From a virus: a stretch of 32,168 nt of DNA. Shown here piece by piece: positions 1 through 26,838 of the stretch. The position numbers were made by a program, and so were the translations under genes. Under the pieces are notes generated by a model that did not search any database, was not told the origin of the DNA, and saw nothing but the letters and a program-made list of their open reading frames with translations. The stretch is from positions 1 to 32,168 of the IMG/VR virus record IMGVR_UViG_3300028610_003763. One strand, written 5' to 3'. Within the stretch, counting starts at the first letter, position 1; each line of letters begins with the position of its first letter.

Positions 1-993
1 TTGAGAAAGGCAACGTTAACAAATAAACCAAAAAAGGCTGTAAAAAAAACAGTCAAAAAAACTACAAAAAAACCAGCAAAGAAAAAAACCAAAGGACCAA
101 AATACATCCAACCAAAACCAGCAAGGAGTAGCGATGTTCCAGTCCCATTTAAGGACACTGAAAACATTCCACACTATCTGCTCAAAAATCTAGTTGACAT
201 TTATTATGATTTTCAGGGGCAACGAATTCAGACACAGCTAAGAATTGGTGCATCTGAGCGAGAAAATTCATTATCAAAAGAGCAGCTATCACTTTATGGA
301 ATAACTACAATTTTTGAAAACGCACACAATTTTGAAAAAGATATAGAGAAATTAATTATAAAACAATTAAAAAATCACGCCCTTTACACTCAATATTTAG
401 TGGATATTCAAGGGATAGGACCACTCCTTGCAGCTGGATTAATTGCATACATTGATGATATTGAAAAGTTTGATCATGTGAGTAGTTTGTGGCAATACTC
501 TGGATATGGCATGAATCGATTCTGTCCTATATGCAAAAAACCAACATCAGTTGAAGTAACATATTCCACTGGAACCACTGCCAAAAAATTACATCCATTT
601 GAAATCTGTCCTGAATGTGATGGTGATACTACACCAATTTTACAAAAAAGAACTGCTGGGTACCAATCAAACTGGAATGACAAGCTAAAGACACTTGCAT
701 GGAAAGCCTCAACATCATTTGTAAAACAATCAGCTGCAAAATCAAAGTACAGAAAATTATATGACAAGATAAAAAAAGACGAGCGGAGAAAACACCCAAC
801 AAAAAAGATAGTTGGGGGCAAAATAATGTTCAATGATGGTCATATTAATAATAGAACCATGCGAAAGGTATCAAAGATATTTCTAGCTCATGTTTGGCAG
901 ACGTGGCGACGACAACAAGGACTGCCTGCCACTGAACCTTATGCAAAACAACTTTTGGGACATTCAGTAATTGAAGCATTTACAGACAAGTAA
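1..993 (+). CDS. IS110-type transposase C-terminal domain protein with zinc-ribbon insertion, no RuvC domain
   Basis: 330 codons from TTG at the window edge, so the 5' end may be cut. Residues 1-45 are a Lys/Pro-rich basic tail and 55-130 are helical, like the coiled coil of IS110 transposases. Residues 136-170 carry the helix-hairpin-helix signature of the Transposase_20 (IS116/IS110/IS902) domain: QGIGPLLAAGLIAYI, then DDIEKF and a YSGYG that replaces the usual YAGL. A zinc ribbon (C175, C178, C203, C206) is inserted next, and YQSN at 221-224 could be the equivalent of the Gln-Ser-Gly that holds the IS110 catalytic serine. The N-terminal DEDD/RuvC-like nuclease domain of true IS110 enzymes is not present. 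It may be a recruited DNA-binding or recombination protein rather than an active transposase. A small zinc gene and a large repeat array follow directly. Confidence 0.72.
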   Translation: MRKATLTNKPKKAVKKTVKKTTKKPAKKKTKGPKYIQPKPARSSDVPVPFKDTENIPHYLLKNLVDIYYDFQGQRIQTQLRIGASERENSLSKEQLSLYGITTIFENAHNFEKDIEKLIIKQLKNHALYTQYLVDIQGIGPLLAAGLIAYIDDIEKFDHVSSLWQYSGYGMNRFCPICKKPTSVEVTYSTGTTAKKLHPFEICPECDGDTTPILQKRTAGYQSNWNDKLKTLAWKASTSFVKQSAAKSKYRKLYDKIKKDERRKHPTKKIVGGKIMFNDGHINNRTMRKVSKIFLAHVWQTWRRQQGLPATEPYAKQLLGHSVIEAFTDK

Positions 994-994
994 A

Positions 995-1210
995 ATGAAG
1001 CCAACAAAACAACAGGCAAAACTAATGCACAAATATTTCAATAAAGTTTTAGGTTATGGCAATAAATGTAACTGCACTAAACAGGCAAGCATACAAAACA
1101 TGACTGGGAGTCTAGTATCGTTTTACTGTAGATATTGTCGCAAAGGGTGGGGATTTGAATCAAAAATTACAATAGATAAAATGATGGGCAAAGTATTGAA
1201 TCTCAATTAA
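995..1210 (+). CDS. Small zinc-finger-like protein, 71 aa
   Basis: ATG at 995 lies one base after the stop of the transposase-domain gene, so the two are probably co-transcribed and translationally coupled. The frame is open upstream to 971, but only as overlap with the previous gene. The protein is basic and has two cysteine pairs, CNC near residue 26 and YCRYC near residue 47, which could bind one zinc. I do not recognise the family. Its position between the Transposase_20 protein and the repeat array makes an accessory DNA- or RNA-binding role possible; that is inference from context only. Confidence 0.65.
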   Translation: MKPTKQQAKLMHKYFNKVLGYGNKCNCTKQASIQNMTGSLVSFYCRYCRKGWGFESKITIDKMMGKVLNLN

Positions 1211-1230
1211 AATATTATAACATTTTATTA
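1208..1230 (+). promoter_or_regulatory. TATA-like segment pointing into the repeat array
   Basis: An AAAATATTATAA segment lies immediately after the small zinc gene. A start about 26 nt downstream would fall near 1243-1246, where the periodic array begins. It could drive transcription of the array, but such AT-rich strings are common in this sequence. Confidence 0.3.
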
Positions 1231-1245
1231 GAATTGGGGAGGAGA

Positions 1246-2239
1246 CACGTCAAGCTATCTATGAAAACTAAAAAAATACATGCGAGTCAATAAGCACTTT
1301 AAACACAACCGTCGGATACGAGTTATTGAAAAAGTGAAAAACCCTCTAATGATTACGAGTCATCACACACAAGAAACCCAAGTCGACTTTGCGAGTTAAT
1401 AATCAATTGAAATCCTACATGGGAAAACGAGTCAATGATGTGTATGAAACCCAACGGGACAAAACGAGTCAGGGGGCATTTGAAAACCAAAAAAGGCGAT
1501 ACGAGTCATCATACAGCTGAAACCCAAAGACGGTGTTACGAGTCAACAATAATTTGAAAACCATGCAAACTATTCGAGTTCAACGTCTCTTTGAAACCAA
1601 TACAGACCATACGAGTCAACCATAGAATGAAACCCCCAAAGTGCTTTACGAGTCACTATAAATCTGAATCCCAAACCATCTGTACGAGTCATTTATACTA
1701 TGAAACCCATTAAATCGTTACGAGTCAAACTCTATAATGAAAACCAAGATACAGATGCGAGTTCATAATACAACTGAAAACCAAAGCGCTATTACGAGCT
1801 ATCATACAGCTGAAACCCATAAACGGTGGTGCGAGTCAGAATACTAATGCAACCCAATTAAATCGATACGAGTCAACATCTCTTTGAAACCCACACAGAC
1901 CATACGAGTCAATAACCATATGAAAAACCATACTGAACTTACGAGTCACTATAAATTAGGAAAACCATTATGATGAAACGAGTCAAATAAGACGTGAAAC
2001 CCATTTAAGAAAAACGAGTCAATCAACATATGAAAACAAAATTAGATTTGCGAGTCACCCATCATGTGAAACCATAAAGAAGAATACGAGCCATCCATAC
2101 TATGATAACGAGAATTTACATGCGAGTCAGGACCCGACTGAAACCCAACGAATCCGTTACGAGTTAGCAGATCAATTGAAATCCAACGTAGAAATATGAG
2201 TTAACCCACGTATGAAACCCAATAAGAGATTACGAAAAC
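1246..2239. repeat. Array of 27 degenerate two-box units, strict 36-37 bp period
   Basis: Box A (consensus TACGAGTCA) starts its CGAG core at 1283, 1319, 1356, 1392, 1428, 1465, 1502, 1539, 1575, 1612, 1649, 1685, 1721, 1758, 1795, 1832, 1869, 1905, 1942, 1979, 2015, 2051, 2087, 2123, 2160, 2197 (TGAG) and 2233. A degenerate copy sits near 1246. Every interval is 36 or 37 bp, mean about 36.5. Box B (TGAAACCCA, sometimes TGAAAACCA) lies 16-17 bp after each box A. Variable segments of 9-10 nt separate the boxes. A second-order repeat of 293 bp (8 units) is visible. The array is non-coding: a period not divisible by 3 and a TGA in almost every box B. It is not CRISPR, because the variable parts are too short. 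Possible roles: protein-binding array (origin, partition, packaging) or a source of small RNAs. Confidence 0.9.
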
Positions 2240-2250
2240 ACTAGAACTTT

Positions 2251-2541
2251 TTATTTTTTCTTTATTTTTTGTTGTCCAATTATTACAAATTGCAAGTTTT
2301 TTGGTTTCATGTTTGGTTCATGGTGAGATAAAATTAATCTCTCTATTTCTTTGGCTGCCTTTATTATTGGAGGCTTGCGTATAATCTGCCCAACTATTTT
2401 TACTGAATTTCTACAAATTGTATCAATAATTACTTGTTGATCTTCATTGTATGGTGGGTGATGTAATATTATTCTAACGTGTGGATATTTGAGCATACCA
2501 CTAATTATTTCCATGTGGTACAAAAATTCATCATTATCCAT
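2251..2541 (-). CDS. Hypothetical protein, 96 aa
   Basis: It starts with ATG at 2541 and ends in a Lys-rich tail, just beyond the right edge of the repeat array. The predicted protein mixes helices and strands and has several His residues (ILHHPP near 25, SHHEP near 72) but no motif I recognise. The gene lies 88 bp downstream of the 45-aa zinc gene and could be read from the same operator-controlled promoter. An AT-rich stretch upstream (AATTTGATAAATTT, minus strand) could also be a separate TATA box. No Cys pairs, signal peptide or membrane segment. Confidence 0.6.
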   Translation of the reverse strand: MDNDEFLYHMEIISGMLKYPHVRIILHHPPYNEDQQVIIDTICRNSVKIVGQIIRKPPIIKAAKEIERLILSHHEPNMKPKNLQFVIIGQQKIKKK

Positions 2542-2629
2542 ATTTTATAAAAAAATTTATCAAATTAATCTTTAGATTCAATATTAAATGAATGGTAATT
2601 GATTTTAAAAATTATATTGTAAACTAGAT

Positions 2630-2767
2630 TTATGCTCTTTCACCACATACTCCGCATTGTGGTCTGTCATGTTTTTTTCCTGCATTTAGATCTTTTCTGC
2701 TTGGATATTCATTATTGCATGGCTTTCCATTAATGGTCCCTTTACATTTGATCCAAGTGCCTTTCAT
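2630..2767 (-). CDS. Tiny zinc-ribbon-like protein, 45 aa
   Basis: The 45-codon frame runs from ATG at 2767 to TAA at 2630. It has single Cys residues at 8 and 17 (CKG... KPC) and a CGVC pair at 38-41, a plausible four-cysteine zinc site in a very small protein. It is the first gene of its operon. The inner palindromic operator ends on the base just before its ATG, so the transcript is probably leaderless. This promoter context is the strongest evidence that such a short frame is real. Function unknown. Confidence 0.6.
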   Translation of the reverse strand: MKGTWIKCKGTINGKPCNNEYPSRKDLNAGKKHDRPQCGVCGERA

Positions 2768-2811
2768 GGTTATTTTATAACCAGATATAATATAAGGGTT
2801 ATTTTATAACC
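2768..2811 (-). promoter_or_regulatory. Dual-palindrome promoter 1 (operators 2768-2782 and 2797-2811)
   Basis: Two perfect copies of GGTTAT-TTT-ATAACC lie 29 bp apart. The TATA-like segment between them reads CTTATATTATATC on the minus strand. The inner copy abuts the ATG at 2767. A protein bound here would cover both the BRE side and the transcription start, a layout typical of archaeal repression. The same layout recurs at 4752-4795 and 6727-6771. Confidence 0.85.
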
Positions 2812-2879
2812 TATACATATTGTATCCTCGATAATTTATTTTTTAATTATATTACAAGTAAAATTACAGAAAATTTGAA

Positions 2880-3005
2880 TTAATCTTTATTCTCTGTTTT
2901 AGGAATTTTTATCACATGTTCATTTTCTTTGTGTCCCTCAGGTAAACCACAATAAAAAATAGAATTGATATGTAATACCCAAAACTTGCATAATTTTTCA
3001 GTCAT
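2880..3005 (-). CDS. Hypothetical protein, 41 aa
   Basis: A short frame from ATG at 3005 to TAA at 2880. Its start overlaps the stop of the upstream 40-aa gene in an ATGA arrangement, the coupling seen throughout this block, and that is the main support. The product has two Cys (positions 6 and 19) and a His-rich, Lys/Glu-rich C-terminal half. No family recognised. It appears to be the last gene of the operon starting at 4751. Confidence 0.5.
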   Translation of the reverse strand: MTEKLCKFWVLHINSIFYCGLPEGHKENEHVIKIPKTENKD

Positions 3006-3124
3006 TTTATTATCCCTATACTTCGTAAGAGTATACATGTTGCGCATTTACAATTACTTGTAATAGCATACAACATTGCAGCTTTGAATTCTTGCGAATC
3101 TTTAACGTCGTTTGACTGGCTCAT
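3002..3124 (-). CDS. Hypothetical Cys-containing protein, 40 aa
   Basis: ATG at 3124 lies inside the last codons of the upstream secreted-protein gene (23 bp overlap), and the stop overlaps the next ATG as ATGA. The C-terminal half has CKCATC (residues 25-30), a possible metal-binding knuckle, followed by a short hydrophobic stretch. Support is mainly the tight overlaps on both sides. Function unknown. Confidence 0.5.
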   Translation of the reverse strand: MSQSNDVKDSQEFKAAMLYAITSNCKCATCILLRSIGIIK

Positions 3125-3671
3125 TTTTTAATTCCATATTATCCAATTCTGGATGATCACGTAACCATTCTAAATCCCAAGTGTAAAATGCTTTTGTTGC
3201 TCTCTTAATTGATCTACAATAACCTTTATCATCAACCCAACGCTCATCCTCATCACATGGAGTGCCATCAGGTTGAATTTTGTAGTAATTCAGTGCACGA
3301 TTAACTAGATCACTTTGTCTTAGATATTTACCTGGATTTTTTTTGACTTCTTCTTCTGAATCTATAATGCCTTGAAGTGCATTTATTCTATTATCTATTT
3401 TATTATTTAATGAATTTAATTCTGGAATGATTTCCAAATTTTCTCCTTGTGAAATTGTTTTTTTAGTCTTTTTTAGAGAAGAAATTTCATCTTGTATTTT
3501 ATCCATGAATACAACTTTAACTTTTTGTTGATGTTTAGAATAGTTTTGATCATTTGATGTCTTTTTGCTAAAATCAAACCAACAAAAAATAGACCAACAA
3601 TTATCATTATCTGCAAAGGCTGCAGACATTGGAATCATCATTATAATGAGAAATAATATAAAATACTTCAT
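3102..3671 (-). CDS. Secreted protein with coiled-coil-like middle, 189 aa
   Basis: Residues 1-20 form a clear signal peptide (KYFILFLIIMMIPMSAAFA), so the product is exported or tethered outside the cytoplasmic membrane. The middle (about 45-110) is charged and helical. The C-terminal part has a Cys pair (C139, C152) in PDGTPCDEDERWVDDKGYC, possibly a disulfide. It starts inside the stop region of the preceding secreted-protein gene (4 bp overlap), so the two are translated together and may act together at the cell surface. No homologous family recognised. A role in host-surface modification or exclusion of other viruses is only a guess. Confidence 0.72.
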   Translation of the reverse strand: MKYFILFLIIMMIPMSAAFADNDNCWSIFCWFDFSKKTSNDQNYSKHQQKVKVVFMDKIQDEISSLKKTKKTISQGENLEIIPELNSLNNKIDNRINALQGIIDSEEEVKKNPGKYLRQSDLVNRALNYYKIQPDGTPCDEDERWVDDKGYCRSIKRATKAFYTWDLEWLRDHPELDNMELKNEPVKRR

Positions 3672-4468
3672 TTTTCTTCAAATCCGTCTACAATATATGA
3701 ATTTGATACATTATTTGATACATCAAATGTATTTACATTTAGAACATTTCTATTTAATGAATCCTCATTTGTATAATTAAACTCCACATACAAATTCATA
3801 CAATCCTCGTTATGACATGGAATTATTTTATTACTCCATGAAATTATATTTATTTCATCGGACTTTATTATTTTATCAATTTCATTATCCCAACCAAAAT
3901 GAAACTCTACTAAACCAAAGCCATCATTTACACTATAATATATTGGCTGTTTTACTATTGAGAACTGTATAACATCTATATGATTTACCCTTGATTCAAA
4001 GACTGTCATGTTTAGTGACAATGATTTAGTCATATCTAGCTCTGGTGGGGAAACCAAATACAACATATCATAATACGTATAATTTAATTCGTATTGCTCA
4101 AATATTGGCGGTGTACAATCATCACATGAACTTTTTTTAGTAACTTTTTCTGTTGTATCCTCAATTGTATCAATAATTACATCATCTACTGTATCAACTA
4201 TGCATGCGCCTTCTGTATCGTCATGACCTAAATGTACAGTCAAGTTTGTTACCCATCTATCCTCACCCTCATGACATACCAATACTTCAACTATTACTAC
4301 ATCAGAGCATGAACCCAGTGGATCATCATGATCTAAATGTCGTTGTAATTTTGGGCCAGTTACATCCTTGTCTTTACCATTATGACACACAATTTCTCCA
4401 TATGCATCAACAGAAAACGTTGAAAATATTATTCCACTGATTAAAAGTAAAATAAATAATTTATTCAA
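3668..4468 (-). CDS. Secreted protein with two CH-x-G...HLxHDD...C repeats, 266 aa
   Basis: Signal peptide at residues 1-23 (MNKLFILLLISGIIFSTFSV). Two adjacent copies of one motif follow: C28-H29-N-G, then HLDHDDPLGSC (44-54); and C65-H66-E-G, then HLGHDDTEGAC (79-89). The Cys, His and Asp spacing is conserved in both, suggesting a small metal-binding or disulfide module. I have seen the pattern CHxG...HLxHGDxxGxC in secreted bacterial and archaeal proteins of unknown function. An acidic linker (90-112), CDDC (115-118) and a beta-rich C-terminal domain follow. There is no obvious C-terminal membrane anchor. Start and stop overlap the neighbours by 4 bp. A surface or extracellular role is inferred. 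Confidence 0.72.
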   Translation of the reverse strand: MNKLFILLLISGIIFSTFSVDAYGEIVCHNGKDKDVTGPKLQRHLDHDDPLGSCSDVVIVEVLVCHEGEDRWVTNLTVHLGHDDTEGACIVDTVDDVIIDTIEDTTEKVTKKSSCDDCTPPIFEQYELNYTYYDMLYLVSPPELDMTKSLSLNMTVFESRVNHIDVIQFSIVKQPIYYSVNDGFGLVEFHFGWDNEIDKIIKSDEINIISWSNKIIPCHNEDCMNLYVEFNYTNEDSLNRNVLNVNTFDVSNNVSNSYIVDGFEEK

Positions 4469-6993: not shown

Positions 6994-7134
6994 TCAATTA
7001 ACTAGAGTCTTTGATTTGAACATTAGTTTATGATGTTTACAGATATAGAGTAATTCATGTATAACACCGCATCCACAATCTCTAACAAATCCCTCATGAA
7101 ATCTGATCGGCCTTTGTGGTTTATTCAATGACAT
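6994..7134 (-). CDS. Small Cys/His protein, 46 aa
   Basis: ATG at 7134, TGA at 6996-6994. It carries CGC (20-22), C32 and HH (34-35), spaced like a small zinc site (CxC...CxHH). There is no overlap with neighbours and no clear promoter. Composition resembles the other mini-proteins of the window. Function unknown. Confidence 0.42.
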   Translation of the reverse strand: MSLNKPQRPIRFHEGFVRDCGCGVIHELLYICKHHKLMFKSKTLVN

Positions 7135-7139
7135 GTTTT

Positions 7140-7460
7140 CTTTACTGCCTAACATGCATTATCTATTATTCATTATGTCATAAACTAGACGTTTGGCACG
7201 TTTGACAGCTGTTTAACCCCATCCCCCCCTATACCCTTTAGGGCCGTCTGACCCTATAGGTCCTTTCATGTTTAAGATTAAAAACATGGAACATCTACGC
7301 ATAATTCTATTAATCATTGTAAAGCAATGGCTGACTGTAATTGAATGCAATAAAAAAGGAGTGTCATAAGGTAAGGGACTCCTAACGCACATCACACACC
7401 CCCTCCCACAAACGGATTAAAATTGAAGGTACCTACAGTATACCCTTTGATAATCCTCTT
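7140..7460. other. Gene-poor control region with G-quadruplex motif and hairpins
   Basis: No convincing gene for about 320 bp. At 7217-7236 the minus strand reads four G-runs of at least three (GGG-TATA-GGG-G-GGG-AT-GGGG), a full G-quadruplex motif in an AT-rich genome. Overlapping it are a CCC-TTTA-GGG hairpin (7234-7243) and arms CCTATA/TATAGG (7228-7233 and 7255-7260). A second C-rich run lies near 7399-7407. It sits near the divergence of the leftward operons from rightward genes, a usual place for an origin or control centre. Confidence 0.55.
7268..7369 (+). CDS. Possible 33-aa hydrophobic peptide
   Basis: The frame MFKIKN, MEHLRIILLIIVKQWL and a short polar tail give one amphipathic or membrane helix with a basic N-terminus. 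No promoter, ribosome site or overlapping gene supports it. It may be chance in the control region. Confidence 0.2.
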   Translation: MFKIKNMEHLRIILLIIVKQWLTVIECNKKGVS

Positions 7461-7500
7461 TGGTACCATACGATAACTTTTTGAAATTAAAGGCCCCTAG
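7461..7500 (+). promoter_or_regulatory. TGGTACCATA element, copy 1, with CCCTAGGT tail
   Basis: TGGTACCATA is followed by an ACTTTTTGAAATT segment and CCCCTAGGT. The element closely matches the copy at 8815-8857, including the tail. There is no gene directly downstream; the non-coding RNA candidate begins about 70 bp further on. Confidence 0.55.
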
Positions 7501-7569
7501 GTATGTAACTAGATTTACTATGTTAGGTACATACCGAAATTTTAAATAATCTTAAGATAGTATCTAAAG

Positions 7570-7644
7570 GTAGCCATCCCACTGGCGAGCCTGCAAAGCT
7601 TGTTAGATATTATCTGACAGAAACCAGTGAGATGACTGTTTTTT
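7570..7644 (+). ncRNA. Candidate structured non-coding RNA with T-run terminator
   Basis: A TATA-like TTTAAATAAT (7541-7550) predicts a start near 7570. The outer stem pairs CATCCCACTGG (7575-7585) with CCAGTGAGATG (7624-7634): ten pairs and one C/A mismatch, extended by A7572-T7637 and G7573-C7636. Inside is a hairpin with a 3-nt loop, GTTAGAT-ATT-ATCTGAC (7602-7618), containing one G-U pair. T6 at 7639-7644 follows directly. It lacks the cloverleaf and CCA features of tRNA, and I could not fit clear C/D or H/ACA boxes. A viral regulatory RNA is the best reading. Confidence 0.6.
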
Positions 7645-13106: not shown

Positions 13107-14912
13107 TCAATGATTCTTGAACCTAAATTTCTTGTTTACTCTGATTTTAGATATTTGAAATCCTTCAGGATCATATTTTGTTTTTCCAATCATACAATAT
13201 ATGATACTCATAACAGTATCCTTTGGATGATTCCATTCTTTTTTTGCCTTTTGTCTTGGGTCCTCTTTTGCAATTTCTTCATTGTTTTTATCCAAATCCT
13301 TTCGTGTAATATCACAAAAATCATCAAGCAAAAAATCACACTCCCAATCATTTTTCATTGGAATAATTAACTGCGGTGCTGGCTTGCCTGCCTCATCAGG
13401 TACAGTACTACCAACAAAATCCACAAAGTTTTGAATTATCTGACTCTTATCTACTGAATAGTGTTCTTTTTTCTCACCGATAGTTGGTGCATCAATTACG
13501 TCCTGATTTTTGTGTCGCATAGTTTCTTGTGTAATGTTTCCTGATGTCCAGCATCCCTTGACGCTGCCACGTCCAAGACCTGTAACTTTCTCACCAAAGG
13601 ATGTGTAACCTCCGTTTTGCATCATAGTTACCTTGTCTTTTCCATAACCCAAATCAGCTACACAAAAGTCACAACAGTATTGCTTGAAAATTTCCACAAA
13701 GTGGGCTGCCTGATCATACTCGTGCTCCATTGGTCTTGAATCAACAAATGCAATCTGATAGCGGTTAGTCTTTCTCCAGTAAATTATTACAGTGCCAACT
13801 GTTTTAGAAGCTGCTGGTCCTGAACCCCAATCGATTCCAAGAAATATTAGAATCTGATTGCCGTATTGTTTTTTTAAATCACCAATCTCTTTTGGAGTAA
13901 GTAATGCTTTGGTATAATCATAACATGCCTCAACCATTTCAGGAGTTATCGGTCTTCTCATTGCCTTAAAGAAATTCCCATAAACGTGAGCTTGCACAAT
14001 ACTTTTTGGATTGTACTTTTCTTGAAACTCTATGGAATTTTCAGGTCTTGTCTTGTAAAGATTAACTGCATCATGGATTGTTAATGGAATTCTTGCAAAG
14101 ATTGTCTGAGGCATGTGGTATCCCCTGTATTCATTGTTTTCTGGTTTTTGTGCAACCCATTTTCCTGACACAATATTTTCTGGATGCTCATTTTTCAGAT
14201 ACCCATCATCATCAAATCGTAATTTCTCTCGCCAGTTCTTATCATCAAATGTCCATTCTCTCTGATCTGATCTTTTCCACAACTTGTACCATTCAGAACC
14301 AGCCTCACCACCAATTCCTAAATAGTAGCACTGCCCCTTTGTCTGGGTCATAGAGTATAGTGCTGCTGCTCTAAACTGTAATTCCTGATATTGGCATTCA
14401 TCATATACCATCAGCCAGTTAGTCATTCCTTGGACGTTATTGTACTCATTCTCATCAGTTCTAACATACACTACAGAGTTGTTTGTAAGATTGATTTCTC
14501 CAACATTTGCTCGTCCATGCATTAAAAATGGCGTAAGCAAATCATTTCGCAGCATTGTATCTTTACGAAATCTCTGCTTGGACCAAGCAGAAACACGGTC
14601 TTCTCTATCTACGATATACGTTACCTCTACATTATCATGAGATGTGGCATAACATCCAATGATGTCAGTTCCAAATGTTGATTTGAAAGTCTGTCTTCCA
14701 TTAACTATAACAATATTTGGTGACTTGTCTTTGTATACATCAACCCAAAAAGGCTCCCACTCAAAGTTACGTTTTACATTACCAACATATGGTCTGGCTT
14801 TTTTTATCCATTCTAAATTATCAGTTGGCAGTTGTGGTGTTAGTAATTTTTTTTTAGATGGCGTTACAACTTTTTCTGCATCTTCTAATTTTCTCTCAAA
14901 AGATGATGACAC
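13107..14912 (-). CDS. terL: Terminase large subunit (TerL), 601 aa
   Basis: The motor that packages DNA into the capsid through the portal. The ATPase domain has Walker A GRQTFKST (72-79) and Walker B WLMVYDECQ (166-174, D171/E172), with a coupling-motif candidate around SMTQTKG (187-193). The nuclease domain (RNase H-like) shows its acidic residues in LGIDWGSG (D361), CVADLGYG (D420) and NHPKDTVMS (D565). GTG start, 2 nt after the stop of the small upstream gene. Length is normal for TerL. It is on the minus strand, opposite to portal and capsid genes, which is uncommon in head-tailed viruses. Cys- and Arg-rich differences from bacterial TerLs suggest a divergent archaeal branch. Confidence 0.95.
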   Translation of the reverse strand: MSSSFERKLEDAEKVVTPSKKKLLTPQLPTDNLEWIKKARPYVGNVKRNFEWEPFWVDVYKDKSPNIVIVNGRQTFKSTFGTDIIGCYATSHDNVEVTYIVDREDRVSAWSKQRFRKDTMLRNDLLTPFLMHGRANVGEINLTNNSVVYVRTDENEYNNVQGMTNWLMVYDECQYQELQFRAAALYSMTQTKGQCYYLGIGGEAGSEWYKLWKRSDQREWTFDDKNWREKLRFDDDGYLKNEHPENIVSGKWVAQKPENNEYRGYHMPQTIFARIPLTIHDAVNLYKTRPENSIEFQEKYNPKSIVQAHVYGNFFKAMRRPITPEMVEACYDYTKALLTPKEIGDLKKQYGNQILIFLGIDWGSGPAASKTVGTVIIYWRKTNRYQIAFVDSRPMEHEYDQAAHFVEIFKQYCCDFCVADLGYGKDKVTMMQNGGYTSFGEKVTGLGRGSVKGCWTSGNITQETMRHKNQDVIDAPTIGEKKEHYSVDKSQIIQNFVDFVGSTVPDEAGKPAPQLIIPMKNDWECDFLLDDFCDITRKDLDKNNEEIAKEDPRQKAKKEWNHPKDTVMSIIYCMIGKTKYDPEGFQISKIRVNKKFRFKNH

Positions 14913-24601: not shown

Positions 24602-24889
24602 ATGGTTCTTTTTTACTCCCCTCAGCATTTTAAATCAAGTATTCAAACCAATACCAATTATCCTCCACAATCATTTCTTTTAGAGGCTGGTGTAGGTCCT
24701 CCTCCATCTGGTGATAATGAGTTAATTGAAGAAACAGGTGGGATTTTTTCTAATTTGTTGTATGATCAAAATGGTGGTGCTCCTGATGGATTTGTAATAA
24801 TCAATGAAGGTAGTTTTGAGATGTTGTATGAAGATACAGACGATATGAAATATGAGGATGATACTACGTTTATGGAGTATGAGGGATAA
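24602..24889 (+). CDS. Acidic repeat protein of the fibre operon, 95 aa
   Basis: Begins 2 nt after the minicistron stop, and its stop overlaps the ATG of the large propeller fibre (TAATG). The second half is very acidic with short repeats of the type LLYDQNGG, FEMLYEDTDD, MKYEDDTTFMEYE. It is similar in style to the LLLETGD repeats of the 31763 product. Possibly a small fibre-associated or tail-tip protein; no named family. Confidence 0.62.
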   Translation: MVLFYSPQHFKSSIQTNTNYPPQSFLLEAGVGPPPSGDNELIEETGGIFSNLLYDQNGGAPDGFVIINEGSFEMLYEDTDDMKYEDDTTFMEYEG

Positions 24890-26838
24890 TGTCAGCCAGA
24901 TGGTCAGCTAAGGGAGAAAAGAGCACAGCAGTTGATGACGATGAATTAATGATGATAGATTCAGAAGATAATACTCCTTCAACTACAAATAAACGAGTAA
25001 AGTATTCTACACTAAACACAAATGTAAATGACTTTACAATGGGTGGTGAATTTTTACAAAACGCAGGTGATCCAACACTTGCAGGTACTACTTCGGGTGA
25101 TGTACGACTTGCTGCTGCTCATGGTTTGTATGTTGTAGGTGATTATGCGTATGTGGCATCTAATACAAATAATAGATTAACAGTTGTTAATATTACAAAT
25201 CCATCAAATCCAGTAATAGTTGGTTCTATTGCAGATGGTACAAATCTTTTAGGTGCTGCTGGAACTTTTGTTGTAGGACAATACGCTTATGTTGTATCAA
25301 ATACTAATCACCGTCTTACAATAATTGATATTTCAGATCCTTCATCACCATCTTTTGTAAGTTCAATAGCTGATATGACAAACATGAATGGTCCTAACTG
25401 TGTTTATGTTGCAGGAAAATACGCATATGTGGCATCAGGTGGTAATGATTCTTTATCAGTTTATAATATTACAGATCCTAATAATATTACCTTTGTAGAT
25501 GTTATAGAAAGTAATTTAGATCTTGATGGTGCTTTTGATGTTTATGTTACAGGTAATTACGCATATGTATCAGGTAATTCTGGTAAATCCATAGCAGTAG
25601 TTGATGTAACTGATCCTACAAATATGAGTATAACAGATGCTATAGTAGCTGATAATGATCTTGATGGTGCTGCTGGAATTCATGTTGGAGGCAGATACGC
25701 ATACGTTGCATCTCAAACTGCTGATTCTTTAACAATAATTGATGTTAAAGATCCTAATGATATACTCAAAGTTTCATCAATAACAGATACTAGACTTAAC
25801 GGTGCTCGAGGAGTATTTCTTGCAGGACGATATGCCTATGTTGCAGCAGCAGATGCAGACAGTGTTACAGTAGTTGATGTTACTGATCCTGCAGATATGA
25901 TAATTGTTGGAAGTTTACAAGATTTTTCTGCTCTTGAAACACCTTTTGATGTTTTTGTTGCAGGAAAATATGCATACACTGCAGCTTTTACAGGTGATCA
26001 ATTAACTGTTCTTAGTGTTACAGGAATAGATTCACCAACTGGAAATATTGGAAATATGGAAGGTGGACATTTAACAATTAGAGATAATGCTGTAATTAAA
26101 AATGATTTGCAAGCAGGAACTCTCAATGTTGGAAAAGATGCTCTAGTTAGTAATGACTTGGCAGTTAGTAATGATTTAACAGTTGTTAATGACTTGGCAG
26201 TTGGTAATGATTTAACAGTTGGTAATGATTTAACAGTTTCTGGTAATGCTAGTATTGTTGGCACACTTGATATGAATTCGAGTTTAATTAACAATGTAAC
26301 TGATCCTGTTTCTGCACAAGATGCTGCTACAAAAAATTATGTTGATGGTGCAGATACTACACCTGCTCATATATCCGTGGCTTTAGATCAAGATATCGTA
26401 ACGCCTGACACTTCTGATATTACTGTTACTGGAAGTGCTGGTGATTATACTGATTTTACAGGTTTTGGAGCTGGTGCTTTTGAGACAGTTGATGCAGGTA
26501 GTGGTACATTAAATTTTTCATTATCTGATGATACTATTGGTCAAGTAACTTATAATGGAACCCCTACGATTAAAGTCTCAATTAACTATATGGTAACTTT
26601 TGGTGGTACAACACTTGGAGATTTATTGGGTTTGCTAGTTGTAAAAAATTCTAGTGTAATAGATAATTCTTTTGTTTTTGCTGATACTTCTGTTGCATCT
26701 CAGAAAGTCACTCTTTCAGGAAGTATTATTATTAGTCTAGCTAATGCTGATACTTTGAAATTACAAACAACAAATTACAACAGTACTGGTGCTATGAAGA
26801 TGTACTCTATGCAAATGTCAGTTACTTCTGTTTCTTAA
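24889..26838 (+). CDS. Fibre protein: N-terminal anchor, seven-bladed LVIVD propeller, C-terminal beta head, 649 aa
   Basis: Residues 1-45 (SAKGEKSTAVDDDELMMIDS, then TNKRVKYSTL) are an anchor segment shared with the two following fibres. Residues about 75-385 contain seven YAYVAS blades with LTVVNITNPSNP-type ends, a LVIVD/choice-of-anchor beta-propeller. Residues 415-450 have hexapeptide steps (SNDLAVSNDLTVVNDLAVGN), a beta-helix stem built on 18-bp DNA repeats. TDPVSAQDAATKNYVD (about 470-485) is the phage fibre motif found before receptor-binding heads. The last ~150 residues form a beta-sandwich-like head. A host-recognition fibre is likely; ATG is in a TAATG overlap with the previous gene. 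Confidence 0.8.
   Translation: MSARWSAKGEKSTAVDDDELMMIDSEDNTPSTTNKRVKYSTLNTNVNDFTMGGEFLQNAGDPTLAGTTSGDVRLAAAHGLYVVGDYAYVASNTNNRLTVVNITNPSNPVIVGSIADGTNLLGAAGTFVVGQYAYVVSNTNHRLTIIDISDPSSPSFVSSIADMTNMNGPNCVYVAGKYAYVASGGNDSLSVYNITDPNNITFVDVIESNLDLDGAFDVYVTGNYAYVSGNSGKSIAVVDVTDPTNMSITDAIVADNDLDGAAGIHVGGRYAYVASQTADSLTIIDVKDPNDILKVSSITDTRLNGARGVFLAGRYAYVAAADADSVTVVDVTDPADMIIVGSLQDFSALETPFDVFVAGKYAYTAAFTGDQLTVLSVTGIDSPTGNIGNMEGGHLTIRDNAVIKNDLQAGTLNVGKDALVSNDLAVSNDLTVVNDLAVGNDLTVGNDLTVSGNASIVGTLDMNSSLINNVTDPVSAQDAATKNYVDGADTTPAHISVALDQDIVTPDTSDITVTGSAGDYTDFTGFGAGAFETVDAGSGTLNFSLSDDTIGQVTYNGTPTIKVSINYMVTFGGTTLGDLLGLLVVKNSSVIDNSFVFADTSVASQKVTLSGSIIISLANADTLKLQTTNYNSTGAMKMYSMQMSVTSVS

Follow-up and report, generated by a model that had tools for sequence, protein, structure and literature searches.

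A viral TIGR-Tas locus with spacers that match casposons and chromosomal loci of ammonia-oxidizing archaea

What does a virus do with 27 copies of a strictly periodic noncoding unit? The question arises from IMG/VR virus record IMGVR_UViG_3300028610_003763, of which we analyzed positions 1 to 32,168 (32,168 nucleotides; hereafter, the window). There, two short conserved boxes alternate between positions 1244 and 2239 of the plus strand. On sequence evidence, this element is a tandem interspaced guide RNA (TIGR) array lying beside the gene for its Tas protein. TIGR arrays consist of alternating 8- to 12-nt edge and loop repeats with 9-nt spacers and truncated ends, and they yield processed 36-nt tigRNAs (Faure et al. 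2025, PMC12045711). A first-pass annotation of the window, made from its letters alone, knew of no described viral element of such form in Nitrososphaerota; TIGR arrays were described in 2025, archaeal viruses included (PMC12045711). The same work calls genuine TIGR targets difficult to identify and the role of nuclease-free TasA unclear (PMC12045711). The class of system is already published, and the target assignments are the new part. We found neither a published native TIGR target nor a published link between TIGR systems and casposons in literature that covers few subscription journals.

The regularity that the first pass described is real. The first CGAG core of box A lies at 1283 and the last at 2233, neighboring cores are always 36 or 37 bp apart, and autocorrelation peaks at lags of 36/37, 73/74, and 110. 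The longest 36/37-bp chain comprises 26 intact cores; shuffling the region 2000 times gives three at most, and the remaining window has two. Parsing of the array identifies box A (consensus TACGAGTCA) as the edge repeat and box B (consensus TGAAACCCA) as the loop repeat. As had been claimed, box B starts 16–17 bp past the CGAG core, and the segments between boxes are variable and 9–10 nt long. The 27 reported box A positions also stand, except that the 27th (2231–2239, plus strand, TACGAAAAC) is a last edge repeat truncated at its 3′ end, and a first edge repeat, truncated at its 5′ end (GACACGTCA), lies at 1244–1252 on the same strand. Given these truncated repeats, the array (1244–2239, plus strand) contains 27 guide units, each made of an edge repeat, spacer A (9–10 nt), a loop repeat, and spacer B (9–10 nt). 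In published TIGR arrays, both repeats carry box D (UG) and box C (CCA), which covary. Here, the loop repeat follows TG..CCA in most units, and the edge repeat, with T[AG]..TCA, conforms less closely; clear covariation of the edges was not seen. The spacing, which was said never to slip, is strict in the window but slips in the relatives L004, L005, and L011.

The neighboring gene, tasA (1–993, plus strand), encodes a 330-residue Tas protein with a Nop/IS110-like C-terminal region and a Lys-rich tail; the contig starts at its start codon. The product scores 167 bits against NCBIfam NF052498 TIGR_Tas (cut-off 100) and matches PHROG 4285 (E 7e-40). Its best PDB match is 9mty (E 1e-30), an entry whose molecule name lacks “Tas” and that we equate with the published structure of TasR (331 residues, dimer); TasH (21kl) follows with E 4e-10. 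Relatives of the protein are 64–83% identical to it, and arrays adjoin tas in most of these relatives (IMG/VR). It is these NCBIfam and PDB matches, the repeat parsing, and the arrays beside tas in relatives that place the locus among TIGR-Tas systems. No RuvC or HNH match exists in the window Tas or in the aligned relatives, whose N termini consist of the Lys-rich tail and a helical segment. Nor is the DEDD transposase domain of IS110 recognized; only a C-terminal Transposase_20 stretch matches. Because no nuclease domain was found, we class the protein as TasA-type. It carries a zinc-ribbon-like insertion at residues 175–207. An AlphaFold model (mean pLDDT 49) is too poor to add support. In 11 relatives, a gene for a DGQHR/ParB-like protein of 284–304 residues lies upstream of tas and ends at, or slightly overlaps, the tas start. 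The proteins show weak matches to ParB families, and their best fold matches are ParB, Noc, and sulfiredoxin. The window contig starts right after the expected place of this gene.

Could the variable segments be guides? Among the 235 units parsed, we count 33 recurrent families of spacer pairs, almost all of them shared between viruses. A recurrent pair retains its two halves even as the order of units and the loop repeat vary. Spacer pairs common to several viruses suggest shared targets. Within the window, unit 16 (1793–1829) is a near-copy of unit 8 that has diverged, and unit 18 (1867–1902) stands in the same relation to unit 10. Near-copies of this sort suggest that units duplicate, after which they drift or follow variants of the target. 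Taken over all families, codon-phase counts of spacer variants are only suggestive.

One Nitrosopumilus chromosome (G007, 1.2 Mb) revealed how the two spacers of a unit are arranged on a target. An excess of matches appears solely in the order spacer A followed by the reverse complement of spacer B. With a 1-bp overlap and at most one mismatch, 9 pairs match versus 1.7 expected; with a gap of 0, 7 match versus 2.0. The corresponding search rule, A8-N-revcomp(B8), is the dual-strand TIGR geometry and spans about 17 bp. Under this rule, exact 17-mers on that chromosome amount to nine unit-sites at six places, while shuffled pairs give a mean of 0.35 and a maximum of 3 in 20. The rule was found on this chromosome, and tests on other genomes weigh more. 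Searches with gaps of 0–2 in virus and host DNA returned no targets; in host DNA, the signal escaped them because a one-base overlap is the best geometry. It is well supported, by statistics on sequence matches, that spacers A and B would pair with opposite strands of one target. We detected no self-targeting in related virus DNA and no targets in marine viruses of ammonia-oxidizing archaea that bear amoC. Single matches to a 220-kb and to a 171-kb phage contig were read as chance.

These results bear on the first reading of the array, which emphasized DNA geometry, envisaged a cooperative protein filament, and listed five candidate roles. The role as precursor of many short RNAs fits, and the filament, replication origin, centromere, and packaging site are unsupported, because the period equals that of a tigRNA unit (36 nt) and the variable segments form guide pairs for which target sites exist. 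GC skew has no marked feature at the array (−0.14 vs. −0.01). A DNA element whose repeats are bound by the ParB-like protein, be it an origin, a centromere, or a filament seed, would account for the strict period and for the ParB-like neighbor in relatives. It would not account for spacer pairs that are conserved between viruses as pairs while their order changes, and a filament site would have no need to match external DNA in one specific geometry. We regard this already disfavored explanation as very improbable.

Which DNA is matched? Two spacer families, carried by arrays of relatives, match a casposase gene. The more widespread of them, and the most widespread of all, corresponds to CGAAAYGT-N-TCRTAYTG; exact copies of this pattern occur in 17 of 250 Nitrosopumilaceae genomes, against none for the reversed control. 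All 15 loci that we read place this site within cas1, at codons QYDTFR, with synonymous differences only. The two copies of the protein that were tested match PF01867 (E 1e-42 to 1e-46), which identifies it as Cas1. A second family corresponds to TCTTGAAC-N-GAYTTCAA, with 12 sites in 10 of the 250 genomes (control, 0); half of the sites (6/12) fall in the same cas1, at LKSVQEIT. The elements that bear cas1 have terminal inverted repeats and lie next to the 3′ ends of EF-2 or purD, with not every feature present in each locus; L283 shows a target duplication, and L282 and L294 encode a PolB of the DNA_pol_B_2 family (protein-primed type). Family-1 casposons with such features have been described in thaumarchaea (PMC6563490), and from their gene content and ends, the cas1 loci are family-1 casposons. 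Casposase is a relative of the CRISPR integrase Cas1. The targeting of CRISPR loci was considered and rejected: the matched cas1 genes sit in casposons, and we noted no CRISPR array or cas2 nearby. A third family, whose members start with GGGGG, matches the outermost 17–18 bp of the casposon inverted repeats. It includes unit 7 of the window (1463–1499, plus strand; spacer A, 1472–1480, GGGGGCATT; spacer B, 1490–1499, AAAAAGGCGA), which has one mismatch in its 17-bp core to the inverted-repeat tips GGGGGCTTTGCCTTTTT and GGGGGCGTTGCCTTTTT. The exact 18-bp tip form of unit 7 occurs in 0 of 250 genomes.

Further matches lie in host chromosomes. Unit 8 (1500–1536, plus strand; spacer A, 1509–1517, TCATACAGC; spacer B, 1527–1536, AAGACGGTGT) exactly matches 17 bp of a host C/D-box small RNA (sRNA) gene. 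The site occurs in 185 of 240 Nitrosopumilaceae genomes (control, 1), and the gene resembles Rfam sR20 (E 2.5e-4), below the gathering score. One host genome possesses a second C/D sRNA-like gene with the 17-bp guide element of unit 8 (L321, site at 7001). Unit 16 (1793–1829, plus strand) shares spacer A with unit 8 and has a diverged spacer B. Unit 25 (2121–2157, plus strand; spacer A, 2130–2138, GGACCCGAC; spacer B, 2148–2157, ACGAATCCGT) exactly matches 17 bp in the 3′ half of the host tRNA-Arg(gcg) gene. No other unit matches a tRNA gene, and we rejected tRNA genes as a general target class. Another spacer family matches the last codons of leuS.

Such sites could mean that the guides serve a take-over of the host, in which sRNA, tRNA, and aminoacyl-tRNA synthetase genes are silenced or blocked and the casposon matches are secondary. 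Several matched loci are indeed linked to translation, namely the C/D sRNA, tRNA-Arg, the 3′ end of leuS, and the region downstream of argS. The last leuS codons and the downstream region of argS, however, are poor sites for silencing, and the most widely shared spacer family is directed at the casposase gene, which most hosts lack. We consider a host take-over improbable.

A further site lies downstream of argS. Unit 9 (1537–1572, plus strand; spacer A, 1546–1554, ACAATAATT; spacer B, 1564–1572, TGCAAACTA) matches this attachment (att)-like site with one mismatch, and units of the relatives L010 and L028 match it exactly. In G007, the core of the site is a direct repeat of about 20 bp, present twice at a distance of 7.9 kb, beside a fragment of an integrase-like open reading frame (ORF). 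In L324, the site abuts an intact Phage_integrase gene; in three other genomes, it follows argS with no integrase. We read it as the probable attachment site of an integrase-bearing element.

Whose integration is at stake? The guides could serve the virus itself, with TasA, together with the ParB-like protein, bending or marking conserved chromosomal sites for the virus’s own integration, tethering, or segregation. Consistent with this idea, the main rival to the interpretation below, the targets include a tRNA gene, an sRNA gene, gene 3′ ends, and an att site, which are the usual integration loci in thaumarchaea; a ParB-like partner is encoded with tas in relatives; and a role for TasA in aiding integrases has been proposed (PMC12045711). 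Nonetheless, the casposase gene contains two of the sites and the casposon tip a third, and casposons were seen in a small minority of the host genomes (the cas1 site in 17/250), which suits attack better than a landing site. Moreover, no integrated copy of the window virus was found at a target site. We judge own integration unlikely, if somewhat less so than host take-over.

We instead favor RNA-guided interference with rival integrating elements, carried out without DNA cutting, as the probable function of the locus. By analogy with homologous systems that have been studied, transcription of the array would start shortly before 1244, and cleavage of the transcript would yield tigRNAs of about 36 nt. 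A TATA-like A/T-rich stretch (1209–1222, plus strand) is a candidate promoter, and a T-rich stretch (2250–2272, plus strand), judged by eye, is a candidate terminator. Each tigRNA would present two 9-nt spacers and, as in the homologous systems, would be held by a dimer of the neighboring TasA. Across some 17 bp, spacers A and B would each pair with a different DNA strand. TasA would then bind at integrase and casposase genes, element ends, and attachment sites, bend the DNA as work on the homologous TasR indicates, and occlude it. Occlusion is the likeliest action because this TasA lacks a nuclease and, as in relatives, would have a ParB-like partner. That rival elements are occluded is favored because the matches include a casposase gene, a casposon tip, and an att site. 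The notion is that competing integrating elements may be kept from moving into, or from being expressed in, the host of the virus; we infer that their exclusion is the purpose of the targeting. More tentatively, and with doubt prevailing slightly, we speculate that archaeal viruses possess a nuclease-free “integration immunity”, in which a TIGR-TasA-ParB locus acts against the enzymes, ends, and chromosomal docking sites of rivals, guide variants track synonymous and strain differences, and casposase is a recurrent target.

Several observations count against interference. TasR in E. coli blocked neither phage nor conjugation (PMC12045711). Of the 27 window units, 22 have no matched target; among those assigned, units 7 and 9 carry one mismatch, and a third, unit 16, is no more than a divergent near-copy. 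The loci with the sRNA, tRNA-Arg, and leuS sites belong to the host and are putative attachment sites at best, and the 185 of 240 genomes with the sRNA site reflect a conserved locus, not repeated targeting. In G065 and G113, the sRNA site occurs a second time; considered as traces of integration, these copies proved to be a paralogue and a contig overlap. Finally, the casposon loci were chosen by the pattern of the first family, and only the other families are independent there.

The probable host emerges from the same data. Spacer matches point to Nitrosopumilaceae as the host family of this virus of ammonia-oxidizing archaea, and PCNA, encoded by a relative of the window virus, suggests an archaeal host. 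The link to Nitrososphaerota made in the first pass holds, in that spacers match Nitrosopumilaceae genomes and one such genome carries a tas homolog with an array. Specifically, 1 of 250 genomes contains a homolog (351 bits) that has two internal stop codons and adjoins a long TIGR array with the loop repeat TGAAGAACA. This contig (L144) probably comes from a virus and was either binned with the host genome or is integrated in it. No relatives of the terminase large subunit (TerL) were found in host genomes.

Other features of the window and its relatives deserve mention. Between tas and the array, overlapping the 3′ end of tas, lies a 79-residue ORF (971–1210, plus strand) with two cysteine pairs and a weak zinc-ribbon match. 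The TerL gene (13107–14912, minus strand) is 12 kb from tas in the window, and in L004, L005, and L011 it directly precedes tas and shares its strand, which indicates two genome layouts. A gene at 24889–26838 encodes a 649-residue protein with five LVIVD beta-propeller repeats and contains a 94-bp tandem repeat (26145–26238; 18/36-bp unit). Among other loci, L008 bears two separate TIGR arrays (1715–2047 and 7356–7615) that flank tas on one virus contig. L029 encodes a distant Tas (2172–3269; 28% identity) and has a short, 7-unit array that follows the same repeat model. In Microcystis phage Mvi-JY20 (L054), the product annotated as hypothetical at 2950–3675 is related to Tas (26% identity), and its gene lies upstream of that for the terminase.

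In one group of viruses, spacers thus match defined DNA with the two-strand geometry that was predicted. Their targets comprise casposons, an att site, and conserved host loci, and these matches bear on the open question of the natural targets of TIGR systems. The A8-N-revcomp(B8) rule can be used to search with other arrays. TIGR-TasA function also becomes directly testable: does TasA with its tigRNA block casposase or integrase action?

How does the locus compare with known systems? The closest are TIGR-Tas systems of the TasA type with a ParB-like partner. Shared with these are a tas gene adjoining an array of two alternating repeats of about 9 nt with 9-nt spacers, truncated edge repeats at both ends, a T-run past the array, a loop repeat that begins with TG and ends with CCA, and the target order A plus reverse complement of B. 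The window locus differs in having 27 units rather than the typical 5–15, in the insertion within its Tas, and in an edge repeat that ends with TCA, not CCA. Furthermore, its best-supported target spans 17 bp, with the middle base shared or skipped, whereas that of TasR spans 18 bp with a gap of 0–2 bp, and here targets are identified. Box C/D sRNPs follow a related Nop-domain protein logic with two guides per RNA; the window array, in contrast, has no Rfam match, and its matched targets are DNA loci. IS110 transposases with bridge RNA share the homologous C-terminal domain and a two-guide RNA, whereas here the N-terminal DEDD domain is not recognized, many guides are stored in an array, and no element ends are seen. 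Like CRISPR-Cas arrays, the locus is a repeat-spacer store of guides against mobile elements. Unlike them, it has no single 25–36-nt direct repeat and no cas gene adjoining the array; it instead uses two alternating repeats of about 9 nt and spacer pairs directed at opposite strands.
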